Of a DNA stretch of 64,000 nt, positions 8,186 to 58,370 are shown piece by piece. The DNA comes from Thioalbus denitrificans. GTDB lineage: Bacteria; Pseudomonadota; Gammaproteobacteria; DSM-26407. Position numbers and translations under genes: made by a program. Within the stretch, counting starts at the first letter, position 1. Each line of letters begins with the position of its first letter. Under the pieces are notes generated by a model. That model had not been told where the DNA came from. It saw only the letters and a program-made list of their open reading frames with translations, and searched no databases. The stretch lies in NCBI RefSeq assembly GCF_003337735.1, contig NZ_QPJY01000013.1, positions 1 through 64,000 on the forward strand, read 5' to 3'.

Positions 8186-8265
8186 TGCGTGAGTGCGTGA
8201 GTGCGTGAGTGCGTGAATGCGTGAGTGCGTGAGTGCGTGAGTGCGTGAGTGCGTGAATGCGTGAA
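8186..8265 (+). repeat. Octamer array (TGCGTGAG/A)n, 10 units
   Basis: Ten octamers in a row, seven ending in G and three in A, are followed by TCCATTCACC-type sequence. They sit between convergent genes. The unit length excludes simple codon multiples, and the array is not inside any credible gene. Confidence 0.95.
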
Positions 8266-33103: not shown

Positions 33104-34309
33104 TCAGGCCGGCAGCACGCGGGTGAAGAAGGCCTTCAGGTACTCGGTCTCGGGAATGGCGGGATGGATGGGGTGGTCGGGCCCCTGGTGCCCCTGCTCC
33201 AGGATCTGGAGGTTGCGGTCGAGGTGGCGCGCGGCGCCGAGCAGGGTGTCGCGGAGGGTGTCGCGCTGCAGGTGGAAGGAGCAGGAGCAGGAGACCAGGA
33301 TGCCGTCCCGGCCCAGCACCTGCATGGCGGCCTGGTTGACGCGGCGGTAGGCCGCGACGCCCTCCTTCACATCCTTGCGGCGCTTGATGAAGGCGGGCGG
33401 ATCCAGCACCACCACGTCGAACCGCTCGCGCTCCTCGCGCAGGGCCTTCAGCGCCTCGAAGGCGTCGCCCTGCAGGGTCGCCACCCGCTCCGCCACCCCG
33501 TTCAGGGCGGCGTTGCCGTGGACCCGCTCGAGGGCGGGCGCCGAGGCGTCCACGCACAGCACCCCGGCCGCGCCCGCCGCGGCGGCCTGCACGCCCCAGC
33601 CGCCCAGGTAGCTGAACAGGTCCAGCACCCGCCGGCCGGCGACGTAGCGGGCCAGCCGGGCGCGGTTGTCGCGGTGGTCGTAGAACCAGCCGGTCTTCTG
33701 GCCGCCGAGCAGCGGCGCGCGGAAGCGGACGCCGTTCTCCTCCAGCTCCACCTCCTCCGGCACCGGGCCCAGCGCCGGCTCCACGTAGAGATCCAACCCC
33801 TCCAGGGTGCGGATGGAAGTGTCGTTGCGGAACAGGATGGCCGCGGGTTTCAGCACCTTCTCCAGCGCTGCCGTCACCGCCTCCCGCTGCCGTTCCATGC
33901 CGGCGGTGGTGATCTGCGCCACCAGCACCTCACCGAACCGGTCCACCACCAGCCCCGGCAGTCCGTCGCTCTCGCCGTGGACCAGGCGGTAGAAGGGCCG
34001 CCCGAACAGCGCCTCGCGCAGGGCCAGCGCCACCTTCAGCCGGTGCACCAGCAGCGAGGGGCCGAAGGGGTGCTTCGGGTCGCGGCTCACCAGCCGCGCG
34101 CCGATGAGCGAGTGGGGATTGGCGTAGCCGGTGCCGAGCGCATGGCCGCGGTAATCCTCGATCACCACCGGTACGCCGGGCTCCAGCGTCTTCAGCGGCG
34201 TCGCCTCCACGTCCACCTCGTTGCTGAACACCCACAGGTGGCCGGCCCGCAGGCGCCGCTCCTCGCCGCGCTTCAGGCGCAGGGGATGGAACTCCGTCAC
34301 GGTCTCCAC
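33104..34309 (-). CDS. rlmI: 23S rRNA (cytosine1962-C5)-methyltransferase RlmI
   Basis: A 401-residue SAM-dependent rRNA methyltransferase. An N-terminal PUA domain (about 1-75) binds RNA, followed by the central EEHEE-type domain and a Rossmann fold with 'VLDLFSYLGGWGVQAA' as motif I, DPPAF as motif IV and the catalytic Cys in 'SCSCSFHL'. Length and motif order fit RlmI. The start is GTG at 34309, preceded by GAGG. It begins 1 bp after the glycosyltransferase stop and so may be the last gene of the envelope operon. Confidence 0.93.
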   Translation of the reverse strand: METVTEFHPLRLKRGEERRLRAGHLWVFSNEVDVEATPLKTLEPGVPVVIEDYRGHALGTGYANPHSLIGARLVSRDPKHPFGPSLLVHRLKVALALREALFGRPFYRLVHGESDGLPGLVVDRFGEVLVAQITTAGMERQREAVTAALEKVLKPAAILFRNDTSIRTLEGLDLYVEPALGPVPEEVELEENGVRFRAPLLGGQKTGWFYDHRDNRARLARYVAGRRVLDLFSYLGGWGVQAAAAGAAGVLCVDASAPALERVHGNAALNGVAERVATLQGDAFEALKALREERERFDVVVLDPPAFIKRRKDVKEGVAAYRRVNQAAMQVLGRDGILVSCSCSFHLQRDTLRDTLLGAARHLDRNLQILEQGHQGPDHPIHPAIPETEYLKAFFTRVLPA

Positions 34310-34310
34310 C

Positions 34311-35363
34311 TCAGGCCCGCGCCGCGCGGCCGGCGGGCTGCTTCCAGCCCGGCTCCGGCTGCTCGCCCCGCGGCGGGCGCACGGTGTAGGAGCGGGTGGT
34401 GCCCGACTCGAAGTAGGTGCGGGTGAGCAGCTCGCTCAGCACGCCGGTGGTGAGGAACTGCACCGCCATCACCACGAACAGGATGCCCACCAGCAGCAGC
34501 GGGCGGGTGCCGATATCCTCGCCCAGGAACAGCTTCACCCCCAGCAGCCAGGTGAGCGCGACGCCGCCGATGGCGCCGAACACCAGGCCGATGCGGCCGA
34601 AGAAGTGCCCCGGCCGGGCGCGGAAGCGCATGAAGAAGTAGACCGACAGCAGGTCCAGCAGCACCCGGTAGACCCGCGACAGGCCGTACTTCGACTCGCC
34701 AAACTTGCGCGCGTGGTGGTTCACCACCATCTCCTTGATGCGCGCCGGCGAGGTCAGGGAGGCCACCCAGGCGGGGATGAAGCGGTGCATCTCGCCGTAC
34801 AGGCGCACGTCGCGGATGACGTCGCCCCGGAACACCTTCAGGCTGCAGCCGTAGTCGTGCAGGTGCACGCCGGTGATGCGGGCGATGAGGCGGTTGGCGA
34901 TGCGCGAGGGGACCTTGCGCAGCCACAGGTTGTCCTGGCGGTTCTTGCGCCAGCCGGCCACCATGTCCAGGTCTTCGGCCACCAGCCGCGCCACCATGCG
35001 CGGAATGTCCACGGGATCGTTCTGCAGGTCGCCGTCGAGCATGGCCACCACCGTGCCGCGAGCATGATCGATGCCCGCCTGCATGGCCGCCGTCTGGCCG
35101 AAGTTGCGCTGCAGGGTCACGACGCGCACGTGGCTGCCGTAGCGCCGCGCCTCGTCCTGGAGGCGCGCGACCGTGGCGTCGGTGCTGCCGTCGTCCACGA
35201 GGATCAGCTCCCAGGGTCCGGCGTAGCCGGCCAGCCCCTCGTGCACGCGGGCCAGCAGGGGCACCACGTTGTCCTCCTCGTTGTACATGGGAATGACGAT
35301 GGACAGGCTCTCGGAGACGGGCGTGTCGGAAGTGGGAGTGTCGGTGGTCACGTCTGCTTGCAA
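34311..35363 (-). CDS. Polyprenyl-phosphate GT2 glycosyltransferase
   Basis: A 350-residue family 2 glycosyltransferase of the dolichol-phosphate-mannose synthase / ArnC / GtrB type. A catalytic domain comes first: 'SIVIPMYNEEDNV' near 21-33, 'VDDGSTD' near 56-62, 'MLDGDLQNDP' with the DxD. Two C-terminal membrane spans (about 245-300) follow. It should load a sugar from a nucleotide donor onto undecaprenyl phosphate at the inner face of the membrane. Start codon is uncertain: TTG at 35363 next to AGAGG, or GTG 12 bp inside. It sits 42 bp after the PAP2 gene in the same run. Confidence 0.9.
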   Translation of the reverse strand: MQADVTTDTPTSDTPVSESLSIVIPMYNEEDNVVPLLARVHEGLAGYAGPWELILVDDGSTDATVARLQDEARRYGSHVRVVTLQRNFGQTAAMQAGIDHARGTVVAMLDGDLQNDPVDIPRMVARLVAEDLDMVAGWRKNRQDNLWLRKVPSRIANRLIARITGVHLHDYGCSLKVFRGDVIRDVRLYGEMHRFIPAWVASLTSPARIKEMVVNHHARKFGESKYGLSRVYRVLLDLLSVYFFMRFRARPGHFFGRIGLVFGAIGGVALTWLLGVKLFLGEDIGTRPLLLVGILFVVMAVQFLTTGVLSELLTRTYFESGTTRSYTVRPPRGEQPEPGWKQPAGRAARA

Positions 35364-35405
35364 GCCTCTGCTCGATGAATGGAAAACGGTCGCCGGGCGG
35401 CCGGA

Positions 35406-36209
35406 TTACTGGAAGTGCCCTGGAGTCGCCGCTCCCCGGCGGGCGAACAGGCGCAGAAGCGGGGGCAGCAGGCAGACGACGGCAATCAGCCGCTGCCAGT
35501 TCTCCACGCCGTAGCCGGTCTTCTGTCCCACCAGGAGCGTCGCCGCGCAACCGAGCAGGAGCACCGCGAACAGCGCCTGCGCCCGGCCCGAGAGCCCCCA
35601 GGCCCAGCGCCGCGCGATCCAGGTGCCGGCCACGGCGGCCAGCCACCCGCCGCCGGCGCCGGCCAGCACATCCACCGGCCAGTGTACACCAACCACCGAC
35701 CGCGACAGACCCACCAGCAGGGCCAGCACCGCCAGGGAGCGGGTGTGCCAGCGGCCCGGGAAGTGCAGCGCCACCACGCCGGCCAGGGTGAAGATGGTGG
35801 TGGTGTGGCCGGAGGGGAAGGAGCCGGCCTTGAAGGCCGGCCCGATGATGTGCAGCGTCGCCGCGTCCAGCAGCGCCGGCGGGCGCGGCAGGGCCAGCAG
35901 GTCCTTCAGCCCGTGCACGTAGAGGGTCGCCAGCACGGCGGCCACCACCGCGGCCCGGATGATGTCGGGGCGCCGGCCGATGAAGGGCGCCAGCAGCGTG
36001 AGCGCCACCACCGTGTCGCCGAGCACGGTCAGGGCCGCCCAGACGCTGTCGCCGGTCACGGCGCCCCAGCCGTTGAGGAAGCGGAACAGGGCCAGGTTGT
36101 TGTCGCCCATGGCCACGATCAGCAGCGCGGCGGCCGCCAGCAGCGGCACCGCCCAGACCCGGGGATCGCCGAGACGCCCCACCGCCGGAATGTCGTAGTC
36201 GAGCCTCAT
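35406..36209 (-). CDS. PAP2-family lipid phosphatase
   Basis: A 267-residue multi-span membrane protein with all three PAP2 motifs: KDLLALPRP, PSGH and 'SRSVVGVHWPVD' (SRx5HxxxD). These place it among lipid phosphate phosphatases such as undecaprenyl-diphosphate phosphatases and the lipid A phosphatases. Its ATG overlaps the GT39 stop by 4 bp, so the two are translationally coupled. It could recycle the polyprenyl carrier or dephosphorylate the acceptor; which is inference. Confidence 0.9.
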   Translation of the reverse strand: MRLDYDIPAVGRLGDPRVWAVPLLAAAALLIVAMGDNNLALFRFLNGWGAVTGDSVWAALTVLGDTVVALTLLAPFIGRRPDIIRAAVVAAVLATLYVHGLKDLLALPRPPALLDAATLHIIGPAFKAGSFPSGHTTTIFTLAGVVALHFPGRWHTRSLAVLALLVGLSRSVVGVHWPVDVLAGAGGGWLAAVAGTWIARRWAWGLSGRAQALFAVLLLGCAATLLVGQKTGYGVENWQRLIAVVCLLPPLLRLFARRGAATPGHFQ

Positions 36210-37771
36210 GGCCGCACCCGCGCCAGCGCCACGCCCTGCCGGTCGTAGAGCAGGGTGTAGTCCCCGAGGCGCTCCAGGCGGTGGCTCTTGGTGAGCACCA
36301 CCTCGCCCGGCCGCGGCTCCCGGCGCGGCACCACCCGCTGCACGTAGACGCTGAAGCTCGGCGTGTTGATGCCCCACATCACCAGGGGGGCGTCGAGCTG
36401 GCGGGCCACCGCGGCGGCCTCCCGCACCGGGCGCTGCTGCAGGTCGCCGGCCAGCGGGAACAGCAGCGTCGAATTGGCGAGCGCCAGCACCGCGCCCAGC
36501 ACCAGCAGCTTCTGCCCCGGCGGCCGCCGCCGCTCGACGGCGAGATAGAGCCCCACCGCGAGCGCCGCGGCGAAGCCGCCGTACCAGGCCGCCCCGGCAT
36601 ACTCGTCCACCGCGCCCAGCGCCGCCCGGTAGTAAGGGTCCTCCACCAGCGGCAGCGCCGCGAGGATGAGCCGCGGCAGGGCCATGAGGAAGCCGAGGTA
36701 GAGCAGCCCCGGCAGCAGGGTGAGCCAGCGCGAGCGGAGCCCGTCCAGGTGCAGCGCCATGAGCACCATCAGCCCGGTGTAGCCGTAGTTGAGGTAGTGG
36801 GGCAGCTTGGTCCCGGAGAGGGAGAAGAAGACGAACACGAAGGCGAACCAGAGCAGCATGAAGCGCTGCAGGTCGTCGGCCCACACCGCGCGCCAGCGGG
36901 CGAACACCCTGAACAGCAGGGCCGTGTGGGGCAGCACCCCCAGCAGCAGGACCGGCAGGTAGTAGAGGAACCCCCCGCCGTGCCCCTCCATGGGCGAGGA
37001 GAAGCGGCCCACGTTGTGCTTCATGAAGAAGCCCTGGATGAAGGCGTCGCCCTCCTTCAGGTACTGCGCCAGGTACCAGGGCAGCGCGATGGCCGCGAAC
37101 AGCAGCAGCCCGCCGGGATGGAACATGGCCCGCAGCCAGCGCCCGGGCTCGCGGCGGCTGAGGCAGTAGAGGAAGGTCACCGCCGCCGGGACCAGCACCG
37201 CCACCGGTCCCTTGGCCAGGAAGCCCAGCCCGGCGCAGGCGAAGGCGGCAAGGATCCAGCGCCGCCCCCCCTCGCGCAGGTGCAGGTAGGCGGCCAGCAC
37301 CGCGGCGGCGAGCAGGACGTTGAGCAGCGCGTCGGCCGTGGCCGCCTTGGCCATGACCGTGATCATCAGCGCCGTGGCGGTCAGTCCGGCGCCGTAGAGG
37401 GACTCGCGCGGACCCGCCACCCGGCCCATGAAGGCGCCCACCAGCAGTACCCAGAGGCTCGCCGAGAGCGCCGAGGGCAGGCGGAAGGCGAACTCGTTCA
37501 CCCCGAAGGCGAGCACCGCCGCGGCCTGCAGCCAGTAGACCAGGATCGGCTTGTCGTAGCGGGGCTCGCCGTTGAGGTAGGTGGAGATGAAATCCCCGCG
37601 CTCGAACATCTCGCGTGTGGCCTCGCTGAAGGCCCCCTCGTCGAGGTCGAACAGGGGCACCGAGCCGATGCCCACCCAGAACCCCGCCACCACGGCCAGC
37701 AGCACCAGCGCCAGCAGCGCCCGGTGCTCGGCGGCTGCGAGCGGCGGGCTGTGGTTCGATTGCGGGCTCAT
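36206..37771 (-). CDS. GT39 (ArnT/PMT-like) membrane glycosyltransferase
   Basis: A 521-residue integral membrane glycosyltransferase of family 39. The N-terminal periplasmic-loop acidic motif is 'LFDLDEGAFSEATREM' near 41-56, as in ArnT (DE). Then come many hydrophobic spans and a C-terminal periplasmic domain. Such enzymes transfer a sugar from a polyprenyl-phosphate donor to lipid A, protein or another acceptor on the outer face. It lies 13 bp downstream of the PAP2-GT39 fusion gene and is coupled to the PAP2 gene. Confidence 0.9.
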   Translation of the reverse strand: MSPQSNHSPPLAAAEHRALLALVLLAVVAGFWVGIGSVPLFDLDEGAFSEATREMFERGDFISTYLNGEPRYDKPILVYWLQAAAVLAFGVNEFAFRLPSALSASLWVLLVGAFMGRVAGPRESLYGAGLTATALMITVMAKAATADALLNVLLAAAVLAAYLHLREGGRRWILAAFACAGLGFLAKGPVAVLVPAAVTFLYCLSRREPGRWLRAMFHPGGLLLFAAIALPWYLAQYLKEGDAFIQGFFMKHNVGRFSSPMEGHGGGFLYYLPVLLLGVLPHTALLFRVFARWRAVWADDLQRFMLLWFAFVFVFFSLSGTKLPHYLNYGYTGLMVLMALHLDGLRSRWLTLLPGLLYLGFLMALPRLILAALPLVEDPYYRAALGAVDEYAGAAWYGGFAAALAVGLYLAVERRRPPGQKLLVLGAVLALANSTLLFPLAGDLQQRPVREAAAVARQLDAPLVMWGINTPSFSVYVQRVVPRREPRPGEVVLTKSHRLERLGDYTLLYDRQGVALARVRP

Positions 37772-37784
37772 GGGGGGACCGGGC

Positions 37785-39908
37785 TCAGTACTTGCCCGGC
37801 TCGGGCCAGTCGACGGGCCGGAAATCCTCGCACAGGTAGCCGCGCAGCAGGCGGATCACCCGTCCGTCGGCATCCACCGCGGGCACCACCGGCAGCGCGC
37901 TGCAGCGGGCGAAGGCGGCCTCCACCACCGCCGGCAGCTCCGGGTCGTCGCTCACGTAGAGCCCGGTCCGGCCCGCCTCCCGCTGCGGTCCCGGCCACAG
38001 GTCGCGCTGGTTGTAGCGCCGATCCCTGTCGCCGGTCTGGTAGACGGGGATCTCCCGCGGCCAGTAGTAGGCGATCCAGGCCCCCATCTTGTAGTCGTCC
38101 ACCAGCGCGAACCGGGCCGCGGGCGCCTGGGCGGCGAGCCGGGCCACCGGATCGGACCATTCGCGCAGGCGGTGCAGCGGCGCGCGGTCCGCGGGCAGCC
38201 CCAGCACCATGGGGAACAGGGCCAGGCCCACGATCGCCACCGACAGCGCCATGCCGCCGGCCAGCACCCGCCGCGCGCCGCGGCCGAGCCCCGGAATGGC
38301 GCCCGCGAACAGGGCCAGGAAACCGATATAGACCGGCGCGGCCCAGTTCAGCTGCACCTTCCCGGTGGCCGCCTTGAACAGGAAGAAGGCCAGCCCCGCC
38401 AGGGAGACGATCCAGACCAGGCGCCGCGCCGCACCGGCGGGACGCCGCCACAGCACCGTCACCGCCAGCGCCGCCACCAGCGGTGACAGCGCGAGCCACT
38501 GCCCGCCGACGAACTCGCCCAGCCTTCCCAGCGACCAGGTGTCCGGCCCCACGTGGCCCAACTCGTGGCGCAGCATCACCCAGTCGTTGGCGGCGTTCCA
38601 GACCAGCACCGGGCTCATGAGCACCACCATCAGCGCCAGCCCGTCCCACAGCCGCGGGTCGCGCAGGTGGCGCCAGCGGGCGGGCGAGAGCAGCACCAGC
38701 AGCCCGACGATGGCCGGCAGCAGCCCGATGGAGAGCTTGGTCAGCGCCCCCAGGCCCACCGCCGCGCCCAGCTCCAGCCAGGCCCGGGAGCGGCCACCCT
38801 CCAGCGCCCGCACCGCCGCCCACAGCCCCCAGGTCCAGAACAGGAACAGAAACACGTCGGTGGTCATCACCAGGCCGAGGGTGAAGTAGAGCGGCGTGGT
38901 GAGCCCCAGCAGCACCGCCCACCAGCCCGCGGCGCGGCCGCCGCCCAGGTCGCGGGCCAGGGCGAAGAGCAGCGCCAGCCAGCCGCTGGCGGCGATCCAG
39001 GCCGGCAGCCTGGTCTGCCACTCGCCATGGCCGAACAGGCTCTCGCTGGCGAAGATGAGCCACGCCACCAGCGGCCCCTTGGAGTAGTAGCTCCAGTCCA
39101 GGTGGCGTGACCACTCCCAGTACTGGGCCTCGTCGAAGTGCATCTCCAGTCCCGCGGCGGCGGCCAGCAGCGCCCGCAGCGCCACCAGCGCCAGCCCCAG
39201 CCCCAGCAGCAGCTGCCAGTCGGGACGGGCGGCCAGGCGCGCGGCCCAGGCGGGAGTCCCCCCGCCTGCCGGGGCGGCCATGGGCGGCAGGTCGACGGGT
39301 TCGAAGCGGGTCGCCGTCCCGTTGCCCGCCGGGGGTGCCTGCGGCCGCAGGCGCCGGGCGAAGGGCAGGAAGCGCAGCGCCAGCCCGGCCGCCAGCGCCC
39401 CCCAGGCCAGGCCGATGCCGGCGCCCGCCAGCACCTGGCTCGGGTAGTGCTTGCCCAGGTAGACCCGGGAGACGGCCACCAGCACGGCGATCACGGCCAT
39501 GGCCACGGTGAGCCAGCGCGCACGCACGGTCAGGGCAAGGAAGACCGCGGCGGCGAAGAAGTTCAGGGCATGGTTCGAGGGCATGCCCGTCACCGGGGCG
39601 TTGCACTGGCGCGGCGCGCCGCCCCCGGGCGGGCGCAGCAGCTCCCAGACCTCGAAGCAGGGCCGGGGCTGCTCGATGAGGTGCTTGAGCAGGTTGCCGA
39701 TGCCGTCGCCCAGGAGGACGGCGAGAATCAGCAGCCCCCAGAGCTTGACCCCGTCCCGTCCGCGCCAGGCGGCAAGCCCCGCCAGGATGGCCAGCAGCAG
39801 CGGGATGGAGAAGGCGCCGCGCTCGGAGACCCAGGCGAACAGGGTGTCCAGCCATGGCTGGGCCCAGTCCTGGTTGATCCAGAGCAGGATCTGCCGGTCA
39901 ACGCCCAT
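37785..39908 (-). CDS. Fusion: PAP2 phosphatase + GT39 glycosyltransferase
   Basis: A 707-residue protein joining two membrane enzymes. Residues 1-190 are a PAP2 phosphatase: K75-x6-R82-P83, P110-S111-N112-H113 (the usual Gly replaced by Asn) and S147-R148-x5-H154. The final motif Asp is replaced by Gln158. A linker of about 40 residues follows. Residues about 230-707 are a GT39 with 'MHFDEAQYWEW' near 255 and 'YYSKGPLVAW'. Both halves are in one uninterrupted frame. Fusion suggests that dephosphorylation and sugar addition occur at the same acceptor. The flanking genes encode flippase-like, PAP2, GT39 and GT2 proteins. Confidence 0.9.
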   Translation of the reverse strand: MGVDRQILLWINQDWAQPWLDTLFAWVSERGAFSIPLLLAILAGLAAWRGRDGVKLWGLLILAVLLGDGIGNLLKHLIEQPRPCFEVWELLRPPGGGAPRQCNAPVTGMPSNHALNFFAAAVFLALTVRARWLTVAMAVIAVLVAVSRVYLGKHYPSQVLAGAGIGLAWGALAAGLALRFLPFARRLRPQAPPAGNGTATRFEPVDLPPMAAPAGGGTPAWAARLAARPDWQLLLGLGLALVALRALLAAAAGLEMHFDEAQYWEWSRHLDWSYYSKGPLVAWLIFASESLFGHGEWQTRLPAWIAASGWLALLFALARDLGGGRAAGWWAVLLGLTTPLYFTLGLVMTTDVFLFLFWTWGLWAAVRALEGGRSRAWLELGAAVGLGALTKLSIGLLPAIVGLLVLLSPARWRHLRDPRLWDGLALMVVLMSPVLVWNAANDWVMLRHELGHVGPDTWSLGRLGEFVGGQWLALSPLVAALAVTVLWRRPAGAARRLVWIVSLAGLAFFLFKAATGKVQLNWAAPVYIGFLALFAGAIPGLGRGARRVLAGGMALSVAIVGLALFPMVLGLPADRAPLHRLREWSDPVARLAAQAPAARFALVDDYKMGAWIAYYWPREIPVYQTGDRDRRYNQRDLWPGPQREAGRTGLYVSDDPELPAVVEAAFARCSALPVVPAVDADGRVIRLLRGYLCEDFRPVDWPEPGKY

Positions 39909-40815
39909 GGCTGCGGCCCATGACCAGGCTGAAGGCGCCCCCGATCAGGGTAACGCCGAGCAGGAACAGGTGCAGGTTCACCGCCGCGCCCAGCGCCGAC
40001 TCGCCGTCCAGCCCCTGGGGCAGGAGGGCGGCGACGATGCCCGCCTCGTAGGTGCCCGCACCCGCCACGCCGTGGATGGGCAGCACGCTGGTGAGTTCGC
40101 CGCCGAACACCCCCAGCACCGCGCCGGGCAGGCTCACGTCCACGAACAGCGCCAGCACCCAGGCGAACACGCCCAGCTTCACCGTCCAGTTCACCATCGT
40201 CCAGGACCAGGCCCGGAACAGCATCCCCGAGGATCGGGGCGAGCCCTCCAGCGCCTTGCGCAGCAGCCCCTGCAGCCCGCCCTTGTGCGGGGAGATGCGC
40301 CGCAGCAGCCAGTTGTTCAGCAGCCAGGCCCAGCCGGGCACGCTCAGCCACACCAGCGACAGGCCGAGGATGGCCCACGGCGGCAGCCACAGGGCGCCGA
40401 GCGCCCACAGCCCCACCAGGGCGATGGTGTGCAGGTCCAGCAGGCGGAACCAGATCAGCGCCGGCACCGAGCGCGCCAGGGGCACGTCGAAGTAGCGCTG
40501 CATGAGCACCGGGAAGGCCACCTCGCCGCTGCGGGCCGGCAGCAGGTTGTTGAAGAAGTTGTGCTGCAGCATCAGCTTGAAGGCGAGCGGGAAACGGCCG
40601 CGCACCTCCTCGGCGAAAAAGTCGTAGAGGCGCACCGCGCGCAGCCCGTAGGTGCAGATCACCAGCAGCACCGCGGCGGCCATGGGCGGCAAGGGCACGG
40701 CGAGCCACGGCTGCAGCAGCCGGCCCCAGCCCACGTACGCCTGCACGGCCACGACGAGGCCGATGAGCAGCAGGAAGGCAGCCAGCCGCTTCAGCTTGAG
40801 AGAGGAAATAGCCAA
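39898..40815 (-). CDS. YbhN/AglD-type (LPG synthase TM-like) membrane protein
   Basis: A 305-residue protein with about eight hydrophobic spans, of the UPF0104 / lysylphosphatidylglycerol-synthase membrane family. Family cues include 'FFNNLLPARSGEVAFPVL' near 86-103 and 'VLPIHGVAGAGTYEAGI' near 243-259. Relatives have been proposed to move lipids across the membrane or to take part in lipid-linked glycosylation (AglD). It begins with TTG at 40815 next to AGGG and is the first gene of the envelope run. Its stop overlaps the fusion gene start by 11 bp. Confidence 0.85.
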   Translation of the reverse strand: MAISSLKLKRLAAFLLLIGLVVAVQAYVGWGRLLQPWLAVPLPPMAAAVLLVICTYGLRAVRLYDFFAEEVRGRFPLAFKLMLQHNFFNNLLPARSGEVAFPVLMQRYFDVPLARSVPALIWFRLLDLHTIALVGLWALGALWLPPWAILGLSLVWLSVPGWAWLLNNWLLRRISPHKGGLQGLLRKALEGSPRSSGMLFRAWSWTMVNWTVKLGVFAWVLALFVDVSLPGAVLGVFGGELTSVLPIHGVAGAGTYEAGIVAALLPQGLDGESALGAAVNLHLFLLGVTLIGGAFSLVMGRSHGR

Positions 40816-40980: not shown

Positions 40981-41070
40981 TCCGTGTTCCGTGTTCCGTG
41001 TTCCGTGTTCCGTGTTCCGTGTTCCGTGTTCCGTGGGTGCGTGGGTGCGTGAGTGCGTGAGTGCGTGAAG
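40981..41070 (+). repeat. Heptamer array passing into octamer array
   Basis: Seven TCCGTGT units (40981-41029) run into a partial TCCGTGG, then GGGTGCGT/GAGTGCGT octamers to about 41070. The block lies in the 433-bp gap 40816-41248 upstream of both the envelope run and yyaL. The gap also holds AT-rich ATAAAGGTGAATGG text (40940-40980) and the degenerate block at 41080-41138. No gene lies in the gap. Confidence 0.92.
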
Positions 41071-43364: not shown

Positions 43365-43516
43365 TGCGTGAGTGCGTGAGTGCGTGAATGCGTGAATGCG
43401 TGAGTGCGTGAATGCGTGAGTGCGTGAGTGCGTGAGTGCGTGAGTGCGTGAATGCGTGAGTGCGTGAGTGCGTGAGTGCGTGAGTGCGTGAGTGCGTGAG
43501 TGCGTGAGTGCGTGAA
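43365..43516 (+). repeat. Octamer array (TGCGTGAG/A)n, 19 units
   Basis: The longest octamer array in the window, beginning 38 bp after the yyaL stop. Units end in G or A, and A-ending units are scattered among them. Open frames through it on the minus strand encode only a repeating Thr/His/Ser/Arg peptide and are not genes. Confidence 0.97.
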
Positions 43517-45380: not shown

Positions 45381-46010
45381 GGGTGGACAAGGGTTGCAGG
45401 TGCAGATTCATCTGCACTCGATCGGCTGAAGTCGTTGCCTGCCCGGGCGGACAATCTGGGTACTGCCACATCCGCTGCGCGTATCTGGCGATCGCCCCGT
45501 GGTCCATGCGGGCCTCAAGCCACTGTGCGCCATGAGGGTTTTGTCCCCCTGAAAACCCGCACTGCAACAAAGACTCCACCGGGTCCCTACTCGAAATAGG
45601 ATACCCTTTCGTTTAACCTATGAGTCGTGTTGCCTTCGCCGCCTGGTGGAGGCCAGGGAAGGAATCCCCCCGGACATGATCGGGCCATCGCCTGATGTCC
45701 GGATCGACGACCACGGAATGTCACCCCATGGACACCCCCTGCCAATTCCCCTTCCGGTACCAGGATGCCGAGTCTCACCAGACTGCGGCACGTACCCGGA
45801 CAATGTACCGACTACCTGCAACGGCTCCTGCCAGCACACAGGGTGCTTCACTTTCACCCTGCGCCAGACCACCGGTGAACGTCAGGTCCGTCGCCGCACG
45901 ACATTGCGCCAAGACCATCTCGAGCGCATGAGACACAGGAAACGCCATATCCCTGCACGCTAGCTTGGACAAGCGGGCTCCACCGCAACGACACACATGA
46001 AAGGGAATTC
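45381..46010. other. 630-bp gap without a recognisable gene
   Basis: No reading frame here has a start, ribosome-binding site and protein-like composition together. Short frames up to about 105 residues exist but look random. Base composition falls toward that of the AT-richer sulfotransferase gene at its right end. I see no transposase remnant, hairpin terminator or tandem repeat. Confidence 0.5.
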
Positions 46011-46748
46011 ATGATCATTTCGCACAAATACAAATTCATTTTTATAAAAACCAAGAAAACGGCTGGGACCAGCATCGAATCCTACCTGTCGAGGCATTGC
46101 GGCCTGGATGATGTACTGACAGAAATATCACCACCGGTGGTCCACCATACAGCGAGGAATCACCGAGGCCTGTTCAGCCCCATAAAGGAAATGGCGCTCG
46201 GCCCCAAAGATGCGATCAAGGCGCTTGGCCATTTCTTCAACAGAAAAAATTATTACAGCCATATGCCGGCCATGGTGCTCAGGGCAAGAATTCCGGAGAA
46301 GATATGGAACAGCTATTTCAAATTCTGCGTGGAAAGAAACCCCTGGGACAAAACCGCTTCTCACTTCTACCACCAGAAAAACAAGCACCCGGATCTGACG
46401 GTGGAAAAATATTTTTCCGATGGCAATTTTTGCCTCAACTACCCCCTGTACTGCGACAGAAACCAGAATATCCTTGTCGACCACATCATCAAGTACGAGA
46501 ATCTCGACGAAGAACTGACATGCATTTTCAAAATGCTTGGAATACCATTCAGCGGCAGACTGAATGAACGAGAAAAGTCAAACTACCGTGACAGCAACGT
46601 GCCCTATCAACGCCTTTTCAACAAGGAACAGATCAAGTTTATCGGTGAGATCTTTGAACAAGAACTGAAACTACGTGATCGTGCCCCCTCTGCCCTGCAA
46701 GTCGGCCGGGAGGAATCACCGCGATGGTCCCCATCCACGAACTGCTGA
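46011..46748 (+). CDS. Sulfotransferase family 2-like protein, probably acquired
   Basis: A 245-residue PAPS-dependent sulfotransferase-like protein. The 5'-phosphosulfate-binding loop is 'FIKTKKTAGTSIESYL' at residues 10-25, and the 3'-phosphate site is near 'CVERNPWDKTASHFY'. Such enzymes sulfate carbohydrates or glycolipids. Codon use is clearly AT-richer than in the neighbours, suggesting horizontal transfer. The last ~24 residues (from about R222) switch to GC-rich composition and overlap the next gene by 25 bp, so the native C-terminus may have been lost at an insertion junction near 46680. The ATG at 46011 follows AAGGGAATTC. Confidence 0.8.
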   Translation: MIISHKYKFIFIKTKKTAGTSIESYLSRHCGLDDVLTEISPPVVHHTARNHRGLFSPIKEMALGPKDAIKALGHFFNRKNYYSHMPAMVLRARIPEKIWNSYFKFCVERNPWDKTASHFYHQKNKHPDLTVEKYFSDGNFCLNYPLYCDRNQNILVDHIIKYENLDEELTCIFKMLGIPFSGRLNEREKSNYRDSNVPYQRLFNKEQIKFIGEIFEQELKLRDRAPSALQVGREESPRWSPSTNC

Positions 46749-46978
46749 GCCGCATCCGCTGGGACCCGGAGTTCGGGCGGGGGGAGTTCGTGATCGGCTA
46801 CTACGACCGGGTGGAGGGGGCGATCGTGCGGGTGCCCCTGGGCGAGCTCCGCTTCGAGCCGGGCGACCGGTTCGACTTCGAGCTCATCGACGCGGAGGGG
46901 GTGCCGCGCACCATTCCGCTTCACCGCATCAAGGCGGTCTACCGGAACGGGGAGCTCATCTGGCACCGGGAGCACTGA
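46724..46978 (+). CDS. UPF0248 / DUF504-family protein
   Basis: An 84-residue protein matching DUF504 from end to end: 'IHELLSRIRWDPEFG' at 4-18, 'YYDRVEGAIVRVPL' and the closing 'IPLHRIKAVYRNGELIWHR'. Members are small RNA-linked or nucleotidyltransferase-associated proteins with no settled function. The ATG lies within the last codons of the sulfotransferase, in another frame, with GGAGG 12 bp ahead. Confidence 0.88.
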   Translation: MVPIHELLSRIRWDPEFGRGEFVIGYYDRVEGAIVRVPLGELRFEPGDRFDFELIDAEGVPRTIPLHRIKAVYRNGELIWHREH

Positions 46979-46996
46979 GCCCGCGCGGGACCCGGC

Positions 46997-48511
46997 TCAC
47001 TCCTCCCGCAGCGCCGCCAGCATGGCCTTATCGAGCAGCACCGCCCGGATCTCGTACTCCTGGTCGCTGTGGAGATAGGGCGCCCTGAGGGTGATCGGCG
47101 GCGGCAGGCGGTCCCCGGGCACGCCCGTGTCCCGGGCGACGATCCCGACGAGATCCGCCGGCGGCTCCTCCGCCGGGCCCTGCCAGACCATGACCACGCG
47201 CCCGTCCGGCCCCGCCGGTGCGAACTCCGCCCCCGGCACCTGGGTGGCGGGGCTGTCGAGGTGGACCAGCAGGGCGCCGCCCACGAAGCGGCGATCGGCA
47301 TAGACCCGGGCGCCTTCATATCCTGCCGCGCGTAACTGTTCAGCGATGGCGGTCAGGGGATGGCCGAGGCGGGTGAACTTGCCGCGGAATGAACCACCCA
47401 GCACGCTGGCAGCCAGCAGCGCCGGCACCAGCACCGCAAACACCAGTGTCACGCCCAAATACACCCGCCGGCGCCTCTCCCCACATGCCTCCCAATCCCC
47501 GCGCAGAAACAGAAACAGGGGCACCAGGAACAGGAACGGCTCCAGCCAGCGCGCCTTGAATTGGGAGAAGCCGAATACCAGCATCATCACCACCAGCAGC
47601 ACGAACACCACCACGAAGAAGCGCCCCAGCAGCGCCCGCACCTCGACGGCGAATGGGTCCACAGCGGTACTGGTCCGCCAGCGGAACATCCCCGGAAACG
47701 CCAGCAGCGCCACCAGCCAGAAGGGGGTCAGGAACAGCCACGTCTCATAGGTGAGCGAGCCCAGCCCACGCAGGAACGCCTCCAGCCCGGGCCCGGAGAC
47801 CTTGAGCGCCTGGAGCGTATCGCCGGTGGCCGCCTGGACATGCTCCTGGACCCAGAGGCCGTGGGGCAGGAACAGCGCCACCGCTATGGCGATGGCGAGC
47901 AGGATCCGCGGATCCCGGGCCGCCGCCCGCCAGGCGGGGGCCAGCAGCGCGGCCAGGAACAGCGCCAGGGCGAACAGCGCGAAGTTGTACTTGGACAGCA
48001 GCCCGAGCCCCAGCACCAGCCCCAGCAGCAGGTAATCCAGCGTCTGCCGCCGGGCGCGGAAGCGCAGCACCAGGTAGGAGGAGAGGTTACACAGGGCCAG
48101 CATCAACACCGAGTGGCTGCGATCCTTCTGCGACTCCCAGGCGATTTCCGGCAGCAGCAGCAGCGACAGCGTCACCAGCACGGCGGGCAGCAAGCGTCCG
48201 CCGAAGGCCAGCCGGGCGGAGAGGAAACAGAACGCGAAGGCCGTGAACAGCAGCAGCTGCTTGAGCAGCGACAGCGCCAGCACGCCCTTGCCGAACAGGG
48301 CGAAGAAGCCCCACTGCAACCAGGTGTAGAGAGGCGGCTGGGAGGCATAGCCCCAGGCCAGCTGCTGGGTCATCAGCAGCTGCTCGGCCTCGTCCAGCTC
48401 GAAGCTGTCCGACAGGAACAGCCGCAAGACCAGATGCAGCAGGAAATACCCCCCCAGCAGGGCGACAAACGCGCCACTGCCGGCAGCCACCCTCGTGCCG
48501 CCTTCACTCAT
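46997..48511 (-). CDS. GT39 / ArnT-like membrane glycosyltransferase
   Basis: A 504-residue membrane protein of the PMT_2/GT39 superfamily. The periplasmic acidic motif 'FELDEAEQLLMTQ' is near residues 37-49 and is followed by numerous hydrophobic spans. It ends with a soluble C-terminal domain rich in acidic residues. It should use a polyprenyl-phosphate sugar and is separate from the envelope locus at 34-41 kb. The ATG at 48511 follows a G-rich Shine-Dalgarno and removes an unlikely 25-residue extension. Confidence 0.87.
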   Translation of the reverse strand: MSEGGTRVAAGSGAFVALLGGYFLLHLVLRLFLSDSFELDEAEQLLMTQQLAWGYASQPPLYTWLQWGFFALFGKGVLALSLLKQLLLFTAFAFCFLSARLAFGGRLLPAVLVTLSLLLLPEIAWESQKDRSHSVLMLALCNLSSYLVLRFRARRQTLDYLLLGLVLGLGLLSKYNFALFALALFLAALLAPAWRAAARDPRILLAIAIAVALFLPHGLWVQEHVQAATGDTLQALKVSGPGLEAFLRGLGSLTYETWLFLTPFWLVALLAFPGMFRWRTSTAVDPFAVEVRALLGRFFVVVFVLLVVMMLVFGFSQFKARWLEPFLFLVPLFLFLRGDWEACGERRRRVYLGVTLVFAVLVPALLAASVLGGSFRGKFTRLGHPLTAIAEQLRAAGYEGARVYADRRFVGGALLVHLDSPATQVPGAEFAPAGPDGRVVMVWQGPAEEPPADLVGIVARDTGVPGDRLPPPITLRAPYLHSDQEYEIRAVLLDKAMLAALREE

Positions 48512-48663
48512 TGCATCGTCCCCCCGGGAGCACGCCCTCCCTGGCGAACGAACCGCAATCTTAAAAGCCGTTTTTTGAACAGGCAATTCTCGCTATTCTG
48601 GCCCCGTAATCAACCCAAACAATCGCCGATCGTGGTGAAGATCTTGTGACAGGAGCCGATCCG

Positions 48664-49125
48664 ATGTCCGAAGAAGGCCGTTTCACCATCCGCATGGAGC
48701 ACCTGCAGGACTACGAGTTCAAGGTGAAATTCGACTGGGAGCAGGCCGCCGAGGTGCTCATGGACGAACCCCCGCCGCTGGGCGGCAAGGCCGGCCCCAA
48801 CGCCGCGCGGATGCTGGCCGCGGCGGCCGCCAACTGCCTCAGCGCCAGCCTGCTCTACTGCGTGAGCAAGGAGGATGTCCCCGCCGGGAGCGTGCGGACC
48901 GAGGCCACGGTCAGCCTGGTGCGCAACGAACAGAAGCGGCTGCGCATCGGCGCCATGGAGGTGCGCCTGCAGGTGGGCGGGGAGCTCACCGAATCGGCGC
49001 GCATGAAGCGCTGCCTGGACCTGTTCGAGGACTTCTGCGTGGTGAGCGCCAGCATCCGCGCGGGCATCCCCATCGCCGTGGAGGTGGTGGACCCGGCGGG
49101 CGCGGTGCTGCACCGCTCGGAGTGA
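48664..49125 (+). CDS. OsmC-family protein
   Basis: A 153-residue OsmC/Ohr-fold protein with the two expected cysteines, C58 in 'AAAANCLSASL' and C125 in 'FEDFCVVSAS'. These form the peroxidatic and resolving pair that reduces organic hydroperoxides in the family. The ATG at 48664 follows AGGAG; a GTG at 48646 is also in frame. Divergent from the GT39 gene. Confidence 0.88.
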   Translation: MSEEGRFTIRMEHLQDYEFKVKFDWEQAAEVLMDEPPPLGGKAGPNAARMLAAAAANCLSASLLYCVSKEDVPAGSVRTEATVSLVRNEQKRLRIGAMEVRLQVGGELTESARMKRCLDLFEDFCVVSASIRAGIPIAVEVVDPAGAVLHRSE

Positions 49126-49204
49126 CGGCCGGTCCTCGGGGTACTGCTGAGCTGCCAGCCCAGTCGTGCAAGAAACGGCCAGGTTTCTATGCATGTCATG
49201 CCTG

Positions 49205-49255
49205 TCATGTATAAAAAATACGATTTTCTTGACATGATTTGATTTCATGTATACA
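49205..49255 (+). promoter_or_regulatory. Promoter and operator-like repeats upstream of fic
   Basis: TTGACA at 49229-49234 is a perfect -35 box; TATACA at 49250-49255 lies 15 bp downstream, slightly close. ACATGA and TCATGT form an inverted pair around N7 at 49232-49250, inside the promoter. TCATGTATA is also repeated directly at 49205 and 49245. The block looks like a repressor-controlled promoter, perhaps regulated by the winged-helix tail of Fic itself. Confidence 0.55.
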
Positions 49256-49292
49256 AAACCCGAAAGCCTTATACAGGTACCTCCCCTACGTG

Positions 49293-50408
49293 ATGGCTCC
49301 CACCCTACCCCTTCTGCCGCCCAGGACCGAGCTGGAGACCCGGGCGGTACTCAAACGGCTTGCGCCGGCGCACCGGTTCCTGGCGGAACTGAAGGGTCTG
49401 GCGTCGACGATCCCGAACGAGCACATTCTGATCAACACGCTCGCACTGCAGGAAGCGAAGGACAGCTCCGAAATCGAAAACATCATCACCACGCAGGACG
49501 AGTTGTACAAGGCGGACCTCTTCTCCGACTACATCCGCGATCCCGCGGCGAAGGAGGTGAGCCGCTATGCCACGGCACTCAAGAAAGGCTTCGAGCTGGT
49601 TTCCCGCGACCACCTGCTGACCACTAATCGCATCCTGGATATACACCACGAGTTGGTGCTTAACGACGCGGGTATTCGCAAGGTGCCCGGCACGGCACTG
49701 AAGAACGAGCGAACCGGTGCGACCGTCTACACGCCGCCGCAGGATCACGCCGAACTTGTGCGACTGATGACGAACCTTGAGCAGTTCATCAATGACGATG
49801 CCCTGAGTGATGCCGACCCGCTGGTGAAGATGGCCGTGATCCATCACCAGTTCGAGAGCATTCACCCGTTCTACGACGGCAACGGGCGTACGGGCCGGAT
49901 CATCAACATCCTCTACCTGGTCGCCAAAGGCCTGCTCAACATCCCGGTGCTGTATCTCAGCCGCTACGTCATCCACACCAAGACCGAGTACTACCGGCTG
50001 CTGCAGGAGACCCGGGACACGGGCGACTGGGAGCCTTGGATCCTCTACATACTGCAGGGTGTGGAGCTGACCGCGCGGCAGACCATCTGGATCATCGGCC
50101 GCATCAAGGCATTGATGATGGATTACAAGCATCGCATCCGGACGGATCTGCCGAAGATCTACAGCCAAGACCTGCTCAACAACCTGTTCAAGCACCCCTA
50201 CACCAAGATCGAGGCACTGCAGAATGACCTGCGCGTATCCCGATTGACCGCTACCAAGTACCTCGACCTGCTGGCCGCGGATGGGTTTGTCGAGAAACAC
50301 AAGATCGGACGCTACAACTACTACATCAACCTGCCGTTGATGCGGGTCTTCACGGAAGTCCCGGACAAGCCAGAAGCATTGGAAACCCACCCACAGGTGG
50401 GCGAGTGA
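49293..50408 (+). CDS. Fic-domain protein with auto-inhibitory motif and winged helix
   Basis: A 371-residue Fic enzyme expected to attach AMP or another nucleotide to a target protein. The active-site motif HPFYDGNGRTGR is intact at residues 191-202. An N-terminal inhibitory S58-x3-E62-N63 marks a class II (self-inhibited) Fic. The C-terminal 80 residues look like a winged helix (TKIEALQNDLRVSRLTATKY). Start is uncertain: the reading frame can extend to TTG 49239, and another frame beginning at ATG 49247 (MYTKPE...) looks like the usual family N-terminus, so a frameshift near 49290 is possible. Neighbouring genes suggest a defence island. Confidence 0.88.
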   Translation: MAPTLPLLPPRTELETRAVLKRLAPAHRFLAELKGLASTIPNEHILINTLALQEAKDSSEIENIITTQDELYKADLFSDYIRDPAAKEVSRYATALKKGFELVSRDHLLTTNRILDIHHELVLNDAGIRKVPGTALKNERTGATVYTPPQDHAELVRLMTNLEQFINDDALSDADPLVKMAVIHHQFESIHPFYDGNGRTGRIINILYLVAKGLLNIPVLYLSRYVIHTKTEYYRLLQETRDTGDWEPWILYILQGVELTARQTIWIIGRIKALMMDYKHRIRTDLPKIYSQDLLNNLFKHPYTKIEALQNDLRVSRLTATKYLDLLAADGFVEKHKIGRYNYYINLPLMRVFTEVPDKPEALETHPQVGE

Positions 50409-50430
50409 CGAGAGACAATGAAGCCTGCCC

Positions 50431-50634
50431 GTGACCCCGCCAACCGGACAAAAAGAGGCATTCACCCGCGTCGTCATCGACACCCAGTTGAAGGATGTAG
50501 GCTGGGACATGACCGATGGCCACAGCGTGCGCTACGCGGGTTTCCAATACCATTGCCACCGTTGCTTCCGCAAGACCGATTTGTACAACGATGCAAAGAT
50601 GTGCTCGCCCTTGAGGCTCAGGGGGGGCGGCTGA
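50431..50634 (+). pseudogene. Truncated HsdR-type restriction helicase N-terminus
   Basis: A GTG-started frame of 67 residues opens with 'KEAFTRVVIDTQLKDVGWD', which strongly resembles the N-terminus of type I restriction HsdR / DEAD-helicase proteins. Similarity stops after about 35 residues, and no endonuclease or helicase domain follows. It is best read as a decayed remnant left when a larger gene was deleted. The remaining gap up to 50760 shows no other gene; CTATAAACAAT near 50690 may be part of the next promoter. Confidence 0.5.
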
Positions 50635-50760
50635 TTCAGCCAGCGAATTGGCCTTTCAGGCACTACTGCACCAAGCATTCTCAGGTAACCTATAAACAAT
50701 GCCCGAATGACTTCGTAATCCTTCGTGGATGAATCCTGATACAGATCGAGCCACAGCCAC

Positions 50761-52470
50761 ATGCTGACCCACATCACGATCCGCAACTTCAAGGGCTTCG
50801 ACGAGGTCTCCTTCGAACTCGGCGACCGCGTCATTTTCATCGGTCCGAACAACTCGGGCAAGACATCGGCCCTTCAGGCCCTGGCGCTGTGGGATATCGG
50901 CCTGAAGCGCTGGATCGAAAAACGCGGCACCGGCACCGTGCCTAACAAGCGCCCCGGGGTGACGGTGAACCGTCGCGACCTGATTACCGTGCCGGTACCC
51001 GATGCCAACCTCCTGTGGCGCAACTTGCACGTCCGGGAGTCGACGAAGAGCAAGGGAACCCAAAACATCCGTATCGATATCATCGTGAGCGGCGTCTCCG
51101 GCGGCGAGGAATGGCAGTGCGGGCTCGAGTTCGACTATGCGAACGAGGAGTCCTTCTATTGTCGTCCGCTGCGCCTGAGCGAGGACAAGCACCCCGAGCG
51201 CATGCAGGTACCGGAACAGGCACAGGACGTCCGGGTGGCCTACCTGCCGCCGATGTCTGGATTGACGGCAACCGAAACCCGGTTGGATGTGGGCGCCATC
51301 AATGTCCGCCTGGGTGAAGGACGCACCGCCGAGGTTTTGCGAAACCTCTGTCATCAGATTCTCGAAGGCGATAACGGCGTAGAGCGCTGGAACACGCTTG
51401 CGGAGCGTATCCATCACTTCTTTGGCATCGAGCTCGAAGAACCGCGTTACATCGCCGAGCGAGGCGAAATCACATTGGCCTATCGGGAGAGGAACATCCG
51501 GCTCGATGTCTCGTCATCCGGCCGAGGACTTCAACAGACACTGCTGTTGCTGGCCCACATGATGGTCAACCGGAAGTCCGTATTGTTGATGGACGAGCCG
51601 GATGCGCATCTGGAAATCCTCCGTCAACGCCAGATCTACCAGTTGCTCACCGAAACCGCCAGCGAGCACGGCAATCAGATCATTGCCGCCAGTCATTCGG
51701 AAGTCATCCTGAACGAGGCGGCCGACCGCGACATGGTGGTCGCGTTCGTCGGGAAGCCGCACCGCATCGATGATCGCGGTTCACAGGTCCTCAAGTCGCT
51801 GAAGGAGATCGGTTACGACCAGTACTACCAGGCCGAGGAGATGGGGTGGGTGTTGTACCTCGAGGGCTCCACGGATCTGGCCATCCTGCGAGCCTTCTCC
51901 CGGTCCCTGGGCCATCCGGTGATGGATCGCCTTGAACGGCCCTTTGCGCACTATGTGCTGAATCAGCCGCAGAAGGCACGAGATCATTTCTATGGACTGC
52001 GTGAGGCTAAAGCCGAACTCGCGGGCATCGCCATTTACGATCGACTGGACCGCGACCTGCCTGCCGATCCGAATCTTCAACAACACATGTGGAAAAGGCG
52101 GGAGATCGAAAACTATCTCTGCTCCAGGGATGTGCTGAGAAAATGGGCGAGAAACACCGCGGAAGCCGAGTCGGCCGGACCGCTTTTTGCGGGGCAATGG
52201 GAAAGCGTGATGGATGAAACGCTCACAGAGCTGGAGAGCGCGCTGGAAACCCTGGGGAAGCCATCGCCCTGGAGCGCAGACATCAAGGTCACCGACGATT
52301 TTCTCGACCCGCTGTTCGAAAAGTTTTTCAGGAAACTGGGCTTGCCGAACCTGATTCGAAAGACGGACTATCATGTCCTCGCGAAGCATGTCGACCCAGC
52401 AGACATCGATCCCGAGGTGATTGACGTTCTCGATGCGATTCAGCGGGTGGCAGGCACGGTAATCGTTTGA
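50761..52470 (+). CDS. OLD-like ATPase with TOPRIM nuclease domain
   Basis: A 569-residue protein with an SMC/ABC-type ATPase: Walker A GPNNSGKTS at residues 28-36, signature 'SSSGRG' near 250, Walker B 'LLMDEPDAH' near 277-285 and an H-loop 'ASHSE' near 310. A TOPRIM domain follows, with Glu in 'LEGSTD' near 367 and 'IYDRLDRD' near 425. This is the architecture of OLD-family nucleases used against phage. It appears complete and stands alone, with no UvrD-like helicase partner, so it fits class 1 OLD. The upstream Fic gene and HsdR remnant support a defence setting. Confidence 0.88.
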   Translation: MLTHITIRNFKGFDEVSFELGDRVIFIGPNNSGKTSALQALALWDIGLKRWIEKRGTGTVPNKRPGVTVNRRDLITVPVPDANLLWRNLHVRESTKSKGTQNIRIDIIVSGVSGGEEWQCGLEFDYANEESFYCRPLRLSEDKHPERMQVPEQAQDVRVAYLPPMSGLTATETRLDVGAINVRLGEGRTAEVLRNLCHQILEGDNGVERWNTLAERIHHFFGIELEEPRYIAERGEITLAYRERNIRLDVSSSGRGLQQTLLLLAHMMVNRKSVLLMDEPDAHLEILRQRQIYQLLTETASEHGNQIIAASHSEVILNEAADRDMVVAFVGKPHRIDDRGSQVLKSLKEIGYDQYYQAEEMGWVLYLEGSTDLAILRAFSRSLGHPVMDRLERPFAHYVLNQPQKARDHFYGLREAKAELAGIAIYDRLDRDLPADPNLQQHMWKRREIENYLCSRDVLRKWARNTAEAESAGPLFAGQWESVMDETLTELESALETLGKPSPWSADIKVTDDFLDPLFEKFFRKLGLPNLIRKTDYHVLAKHVDPADIDPEVIDVLDAIQRVAGTVIV

Positions 52471-52616
52471 AGGCAGCAACCGGGGATTGCACACCTCGCT
52501 GAAGGAGGTGAACAAGGGCCCTGCTCCGCCTATCTAAAGGCACATGCGGTCAATCTGCGGTCCCGCCGCTTTTTTCTCTTCGCCTTCTGCCCTGTACCCT
52601 CTGTTGGACAAATCCT

Positions 52617-58268: not shown

Positions 58269-58278
58269 TCAATAACCG

Positions 58279-58370
58279 TGCGTGAGTGCGTGAGTGCGTG
58301 AGTGCGTGAGTGCGTGAGTGCGTGGGTGCGTGAGTGCGTGAGTGCGTGAGTGCGTGAGTGCGTGAGTGCG
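58279..58370 (+). repeat. Octamer array (TGCGTGAG)n upstream of P-ATPase
   Basis: About 11.5 octamers, one of them TGCGTGGG. On the minus strand they lie immediately before the P-type ATPase start, so copy-number changes could alter its leader. Between the array and the VIT-like stop at 58408 there is only ATCCTTATCACTTATCCC-type text. Confidence 0.95.

Follow-up and report, generated by a model that had tools for sequence, protein, structure and literature searches.

Gene content and genomic setting of the operon

The window analysed here, a 64,000-nucleotide stretch of the Thioalbus denitrificans genome, contains five linked minus-strand genes for membrane enzymes at positions 34311-40815, recognised from open reading frames and their Pfam domains (Table 1). 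They encode a putative membrane flippase (FLP), a fusion of a PAP2 domain with a GT39 glycosyltransferase (PAPn-GTb), a second GT39 protein (GTc), a stand-alone PAP2 protein (PAPd) and a polyprenyl-phosphate sugar synthase-like protein (GT2). The original prediction had named these five gene classes and described four of the genes as overlapping or lying within 13 bp. Both statements agree with our analysis: in the order from FLP to GT2, the junctions measure -11, +13, -4 and +42 bp. An RlmI-like rRNA methyltransferase gene begins 1 bp past GT2, so the transcription unit may extend further. Such a gene also lies downstream of the cassette in two other loci (L053 and L056) and is probably a passenger of the operon.

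Table 1. Operon genes and other annotated features of the window
Feature	Position	Strand	Description
FLP	39898-40815	-	305 aa, TTG start; PF03706 (LPG_synthase_TM / UPF0104, AglD-like), 84.5 bits (cut-off 33.4)
PAPn-GTb	37785-39908	-	707 aa; PAP2 PF01569, residues 59-173; PMT_2 PF13231, residues 277-437
GTc	36206-37771	-	521 aa; PMT_2; second GT39, ArnT-like
PAPd	35406-36209	-	267 aa, ATG start; PAP2 PF01569, 72.6 bits; stand-alone, LpxE-like
GT2	34311-35363	-	350 aa, TTG start; PF00535, 117 bits; ArnC/DPM-synthase-like
RlmI-like rRNA methyltransferase	33104-34309	-	NCBIfam RSP_2647/RlmI models
Third PMT_2 protein	46997-48586		in lower-GC stretch
Sulfotransferase-like ORF	46011-46748		in lower-GC stretch
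AAA_15/AAA_21 ATPase	50761-52470		in lower-GC stretch

In the source genome, which spans 4.14 Mb in 21 contigs and is 99.7% complete, the operon accounts for two of the only four PAP2 domains and two of the only four PMT_2 domains. Since, in addition, the linkage recurs across species, the grouping of these genes goes beyond chance. Elsewhere in the window, the stretch 46000-52500 has a lower GC content (0.59-0.62) and looks like acquired DNA. The intergenic regions also carry perfect or near-perfect tandem repeats of a heptamer, (TCCGTGT)n, at 40981-41035 (just upstream of the operon) and 1-95, and of an octamer, (TGCGTGAG)n, at 8186-8264, 43365-43515 and 58278-58370. In a dehydrogenase ORF of another locus (L090:9060-10376), a similar repeat seems to code for an in-frame 'RNTEHGARNT' stretch.

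Folds and conserved residues of the encoded proteins

The AlphaFold model of FLP has a pLDDT of 89, and its only credible fold matches in the PDB are MprF structures (7f47, 9goe and 9j8q; TM 0.52-0.58, E 0.007-0.06). These matches come from the fold search; a sequence search of FLP against the PDB found nothing, and no Pfam family besides PF03706 was matched. FLP thus resembles MprF and AglD in its PF03706 domain and fold, but it lacks a lysyltransferase or GT domain and its predicted cargo is a polyprenyl-phosphate-linked sugar. FLP is a candidate flippase for such a compound.

GT2 belongs to the ArnC/DPMS class, scoring 201 bits with the NCBIfam ArnC model (cut-off 529), and its DxD motif (D110-G-D112) is conserved. 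GTc scores 150 bits with the ArnT model (cut-off 567), its family profile matches ArnT (5ezm) in the PDB with an E-value of 2e-45, and residues D42/D44/E45, D73-K74-P75 and T145-A-D147 are invariant. In the fusion, the PAP2 phosphatase occupies residues ~1-190 and the GT39/PMT_2 glycosyltransferase of the GT-C type residues ~220-707. The fusion model (pLDDT 91) matches ArnT (5ezm/5f15) over its glycosyltransferase part in the fold search (E 1e-10), and the GTb profile also finds ArnT (E 8.5e-9). A tblastn search with GTb matched 24 of 72,556 plasmid records, 22 of them from Rhizobium and one each from Martelella and Streptomyces. By their PMT_2 domains and, for GTb, these rhizobial plasmid matches, GTc and GTb are GT39 transferases of the Rgt kind at the family level only.

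The two phosphatase domains differ in their nearest relatives. With a profile of nine PAPd members, Aquifex LpxE (6ebu) is the first PDB match (E 2.2e-21, 79.5 bits), followed by Bacillus subtilis PgpB at 36 bits, while among NCBIfam models PAPd has weak matches to those of Und-PP phosphatases only. The PAPn profile ranks B. subtilis PgpB (56 bits) above LpxE (47 bits); compared by fold, the PAP2 part of the fusion model fits LpxE 6ebu (TM 0.81 by target length) better than PgpB (0.65). Neither PAP2 protein of the operon matches the LpxF model NF045633. The K-R, S-H and R-H motifs of the PAP2 superfamily are all present in PAPd, where K102, R109, S133, G134, H135, R170, H176 and D180 are invariant. 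PAPn conserves K75, R82, S111, H113, R148 and H154, that is, everything except the third-motif Asp: this motif reads SRVYLGKHYPSQV in the window, and Gln158 at the usual Asp place is Gln throughout the family. The missing Asp counts against the interpretation favoured below, as does the resemblance of both PAPn and PAPd to undecaprenyl-PP and PGP phosphatases (SepP, BcrC/YbjG and PgpB models). However, human G6PC1 ('HFPHQV') has Gln at the place aligned with Gln158; since glucose-6-phosphatase shares this residue, the change from Asp to Gln need not abolish PAPn activity.

Recurrence of the gene set and apparent exchange of phosphatases

Relatives were gathered by a class-wide search of 369 genomes and a scan of a genome collection of 84,980 species. 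Loci were sampled mostly by similarity to GTb or to the fusion, so the presence of GTb is largely by construction, which leaves partner frequencies unaffected. The original prediction had proposed searching for the same gene order in other genomes; the set does recur, with an order conserved across species. It comprises a single GT2, one or two PAP2 plus GT39 pairs and, in most cases, one FLP. Profile mapping of all loci revealed FLP-PAPn-GT2-GTb in many Gammaproteobacteria; GTc-PAPd-FLP-PAPn-GT2-GTb in seven Competibacteraceae, four of which have PAPn fused to GT2; UDP-Glc dehydrogenase and epimerase-like genes divergent from FLP, a PAPn-GT2 fusion and GTb in two Accumulibacter; and an epimerase-like gene divergent from PAPd-FLP-GT2-GTc-GTb-LpxF in Burkholderiales/Comamonadaceae and similar MAGs. 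The window, which reads FLP-PAPn=GTb-GTc-PAPd-GT2, has these six parts in another order. In a second genome of the genus (G001), a contig ends just after FLP and the first part of PAPn. A complete gammaproteobacterial genome (L136) has GT2-GTc-PAPd-GTb-PAPx, where PAPx is LpxF-like; from its sequence, this locus would supply a single donor synthase along with two pairs of phosphatase and transferase. FLP, which adjoins GT2 or PAPn in most relatives, is not found in L136, in L071 or in the alphaproteobacterial loci, which counts against the interpretation favoured below. PAPd accompanies GTc in 14 of 18 loci, and three of the four exceptions are cut by a contig end; in most loci, cassettes with two PAP2 domains are also those with two GT39 domains.

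Relatives of the fusion occur in gamma- and betaproteobacteria, nearly all with PAPn and GTb as separate genes. The PAPn-GTb fusion itself occurs, besides the window, in L071 and L058 (a Hydrogenedentota MAG); the GTb tree does not place the three as sisters. Other loci feature fusions of PAPn with GT2, GT2 with GTb and LpxF with GT2. Repeated fusion of the same parts in different lineages supports their participation in a single process. On the other hand, PAPn stands alone in several genomes and GTb in others. The original prediction had regarded unlinked homologues as evidence against itself. The conserved order mostly speaks for linkage, yet these solitary genes reveal that it is not strict, and this counts against our preferred reading.

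Several loci display additional features. A solo PAPn, or a PAPd-PAPn pair, adjoins a DUF3108 (PF11306)-like gene in L076 (8986-11029), L078, L079, L038 (4534-5292), L041 and L044; in L076 and L078, the phosphatase genes lie between purM-purN and DUF3108. In Competibacteraceae, a DUF3108 gene is located directly upstream of GTc. DUF3108 may be part of the same envelope process. L081 (9235-10907; G206), with an intact PAPn and fragments of FLP and GTb, is apparently a decayed cassette. In L150 (6647-8356), from another proteobacterial class, an LpxF-like PAP2 fused to GT2 is divergent from the GTb gene. L062, from a record labelled Rickettsia typhi, has a Burkholderiales-type cassette and a GTb placed among Burkholderiales in the tree; it is probably a mislabelled MAG.

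No locus combines PAPn (present in 32) with PAPx/LpxF (present in 13). Of the 67 non-duplicate GTb loci, PAPn lies close by in 26 and an LpxF-like gene in 13; the remaining 28 have neither. In Burkholderiales cassettes, the gene after GTb matches the LpxF model NF045633 over nearly its full length at 105 bits. An LpxF-like gene adjoins GTb in L136 (159 bits, near full length), L060, L137, L139, L147, L150 and L154 (101-159 bits for those scanned); these scores are below the curated cut-off of 400, making the enzymes members of the LpxF family rather than certified LpxF. The two remaining PAP2 proteins of the source genome do not match the PAPx profile. In the GTb tree, most LpxF-partnered sequences and most PAPn-partnered ones group apart (SH-aLRT 99 and 88), which suggests that one 4'-phosphatase took the place of another. 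Together with the two pairs in L136, this exchange predicts that PAPn is a 4'-phosphatase, GTb a 4'-transferase, PAPd a 1-phosphatase and GTc a C1 transferase.

A predicted exchange of lipid A phosphates for sugar

The operon probably encodes a periplasmic system that exchanges lipid A phosphates for uronic acid, a reading in which we infer the activities, the sugar, the acceptor and the positions of attachment. GT2 would charge polyprenyl phosphate in the cytosol, the sugar most likely being galacturonic acid (GalA) from UDP-GalA, and FLP, with its MprF/AglD-type fold, would carry polyprenyl-P-GalA across the membrane. On the periplasmic side, lipid A would be processed before its export by two pairs of phosphatase and transferase. 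The LpxE-like PAPd would take off the 1-phosphate and GTc would attach the sugar at C1; the PAPn domain, in place of LpxF, would take off the 4'-phosphate and the fused GTb would attach the sugar at C4'. The fusion would thereby couple removal and replacement within one polypeptide. The original prediction of phosphate replacement by a sugar, as in the Rgt/LpxF pathways, is the reading that comparative evidence favours most: LpxF-like phosphatases occupy the PAPn slot in related cassettes, PAPd is LpxE-like, GTc is ArnT-like, and some cassettes have genes for a UDP-GlcA epimerase-like protein and a dehydrogenase at their side. LpxF itself is absent here. The absence of EptA, a phosphate-dependent modifier, was considered as support and rejected. 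EptA is missing from 31 of 34 cassette genomes but also from 236 of 274 genomes of the class; being present in just 38, it is uninformative when absent.

The case for galacturonic acid comes from neighbouring genes. A UDP-GlcA 4-epimerase-like gene adjoins the cassette in three separate lineages, represented by Accumulibacter, where it sits beside a UDP-Glc dehydrogenase gene, by L075 and by Burkholderiales-type loci (L064, L066, L067 and, with a truncated gene, L065). The best PDB relatives of this gene product are 5u4q (labelled dTDP-glucose dehydratase), 6zl6 and MoeE5 (6kv9), of which we take the latter two to be UDP-GlcA 4-epimerases. GalE-like genes about 5 kb downstream in L033, L034 and L050 are distant and look like UDP-galactose epimerases, and we therefore left them out of the count. 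The source genome has homologues of UDP-Glc dehydrogenase and UDP-GlcA 4-epimerase away from the operon, at C6:226k and C1:386k; genes predicted to supply UDP-GalA are present, but their distance from the operon counts against our reading, and they may serve another polysaccharide. That the same phosphate replacement uses mannose, glucose or glucuronic acid instead is rather unlikely. GT2 and GT39 families have a wide sugar range, the window operon has no adjoining epimerase gene, and PMC7663294 cites (as its reference 12) a neutral mannose-containing lipid A for Bradyrhizobium elkanii. It is the recurrence of the epimerase-like gene beside the cassette in three lineages that argues against another sugar.

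Other interpretations assign the phosphatases a different role or none. We regard as unlikely a classical three-component glycosylation of LPS core, O-antigen, another polymer or a protein, in which the PAP2 enzymes would only recycle undecaprenyl (pyro)phosphate. A GT2, a candidate membrane flippase and a GT-C transferase do make up the general layout of such systems (PMC11127046), PAPn and PAPd are weakly similar to undecaprenyl-PP phosphatases, and PAP2 genes are found without glycosyltransferases. Yet the use of a polyprenyl-monophosphate donor releases Und-P, so no phosphatase is needed, and other PAP2 proteins of the genome could do the recycling. Neither would recycling fit with the LpxF family taking the place of PAPn in sister cassettes or with the coincidence of paired PAP2 and paired GT39 domains. 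Within the same general frame, the Gtr systems for O-antigen glycosylation (GtrA/GtrB/Gtr) are similar in clustering a synthase, a flippase candidate and a GT-C transferase; here, however, FLP is PF03706/MprF-like instead of GtrA, two PAP2 domains are present and the predicted acceptor is lipid A.

Phosphatases acting on another phospholipid (PGP, phosphatidic acid or ceramide phosphate), with the GT39 enzymes glycosylating the exposed hydroxyl to give phosphate-free glycolipids, are a decidedly improbable solution. The logic of a phosphatase and a transferase suits any phospholipid, and PgpB-type PAP2 is among the closest solved relatives of PAPn, but the nearest named relatives of PAPd, of the enzyme in the PAPn slot and of GTc (LpxE, LpxF and ArnT) are all lipid A enzymes. 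Least probable by far is an Ara4N-like system, in which the ArnC-like GT2 and the ArnT-like GTc would put an amino sugar on lipid A phosphates and the PAP2 genes would be unrelated. The matches of GT2 to the ArnC model and of GTc to the ArnT model suit it, but both scores are far under the curated cut-offs. Moreover, the cassette has no arnB or arnD, and a sugar placed on phosphate leaves two phosphatases without use. No bifunctional ArnA scores above the cut-off in the source genome, and on this ground the Ara4N reading was rejected.

Returning to phosphate-to-uronic-acid exchange, the closest comparison is the rhizobial RgtD/RgtE/RgtF and LpxE/LpxF system, which places GalA on lipid A in Rhizobium leguminosarum, Mesorhizobium loti and Oligotropha carboxidovorans. 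In both, GT39 transferases are accompanied by a synthase for the polyprenyl-P sugar and by lipid A phosphatases of the PAP2 type (as predictions in our case), and the plasmid relatives of GTb are almost all rhizobial. Unlike the rhizobial system, the one described here forms a single operon that includes the PF03706 flippase candidate, has PAPn instead of LpxF and a PAP2 domain fused to GT39, and occurs in gamma- and betaproteobacteria. In Oligotropha, rgtE-lpxE-rgtF are on consecutive locus tags, and the lpxF and rgtD queries share one tag (PMC7663294); the shared tag may denote a PAP2-GT39 fusion or stem from an error in the table. Oligotropha (at C1 and C4'), Caulobacter crescentus and Aquifex pyrophilus all bear GalA at the two ends of their lipid A (PMC7663294), and in A. 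pyrophilus it replaces both phosphates (PMC6581854, PMC7663294). The Aquifex pathway (A. aeolicus/A. pyrophilus) provides the closest solved relative of PAPd, LpxE (aq_1706); in contrast to our operon, its rgtD, rgtE and rgtF homologues are on distant locus tags, and its 4'-phosphatase is not identified in the same paper (PMC7663294). LpxE enzymes also hydrolyse C55-PP (PMC6581854).

The original label of a possible undescribed pathway goes too far: rhizobia, Oligotropha, Caulobacter and Aquifex have already revealed the chemistry and the roles of most enzymes (PMC7663294, PMC6581854). What looks new from the gene content is that a single operon brings the parts together and includes a fusion protein, a flippase candidate and another phosphatase in place of LpxF. 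A literature search of partial coverage found no paper describing the operon, including in Accumulibacter or Competibacter or under PAP2, GT39 and lipid A together, and nothing informative on Bdellovibrio mannose-lipid A genes. A broader joint proposal has the fusion as a one-chain lipid A 4'-phosphate-to-sugar exchanger, its PAP2 domain, with Gln for the third-motif Asp, as founder of a non-LpxF 4'-phosphatase family, FLP as a polyprenyl-P-uronic acid flippase, and the lipid A of gamma- and betaproteobacteria, Competibacter and Accumulibacter among them, as phosphate-poor and capped with uronic acid; that all of it holds at once is possible, though we would sooner expect some part to fail.

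Lipid A phosphates form bridges through divalent cations, and polymyxins as well as the innate immune receptor target these phosphates. To our knowledge, GalA in their place is documented in only a few lineages, and we know of no protein assigned to the flippase step of the rhizobial pathway. If our interpretation is true, aquatic and wastewater gamma- and betaproteobacteria would join the lineages with phosphate-swap chemistry, FLP would be a candidate for the step that flips the polyprenyl-P-sugar, and the fused phosphatase-transferase would offer a convenient experimental object. Finally, the exchange of partners between PAPn and LpxF leads to a testable prediction, namely that PAPn represents an unrecognised family of lipid A 4'-phosphatases.
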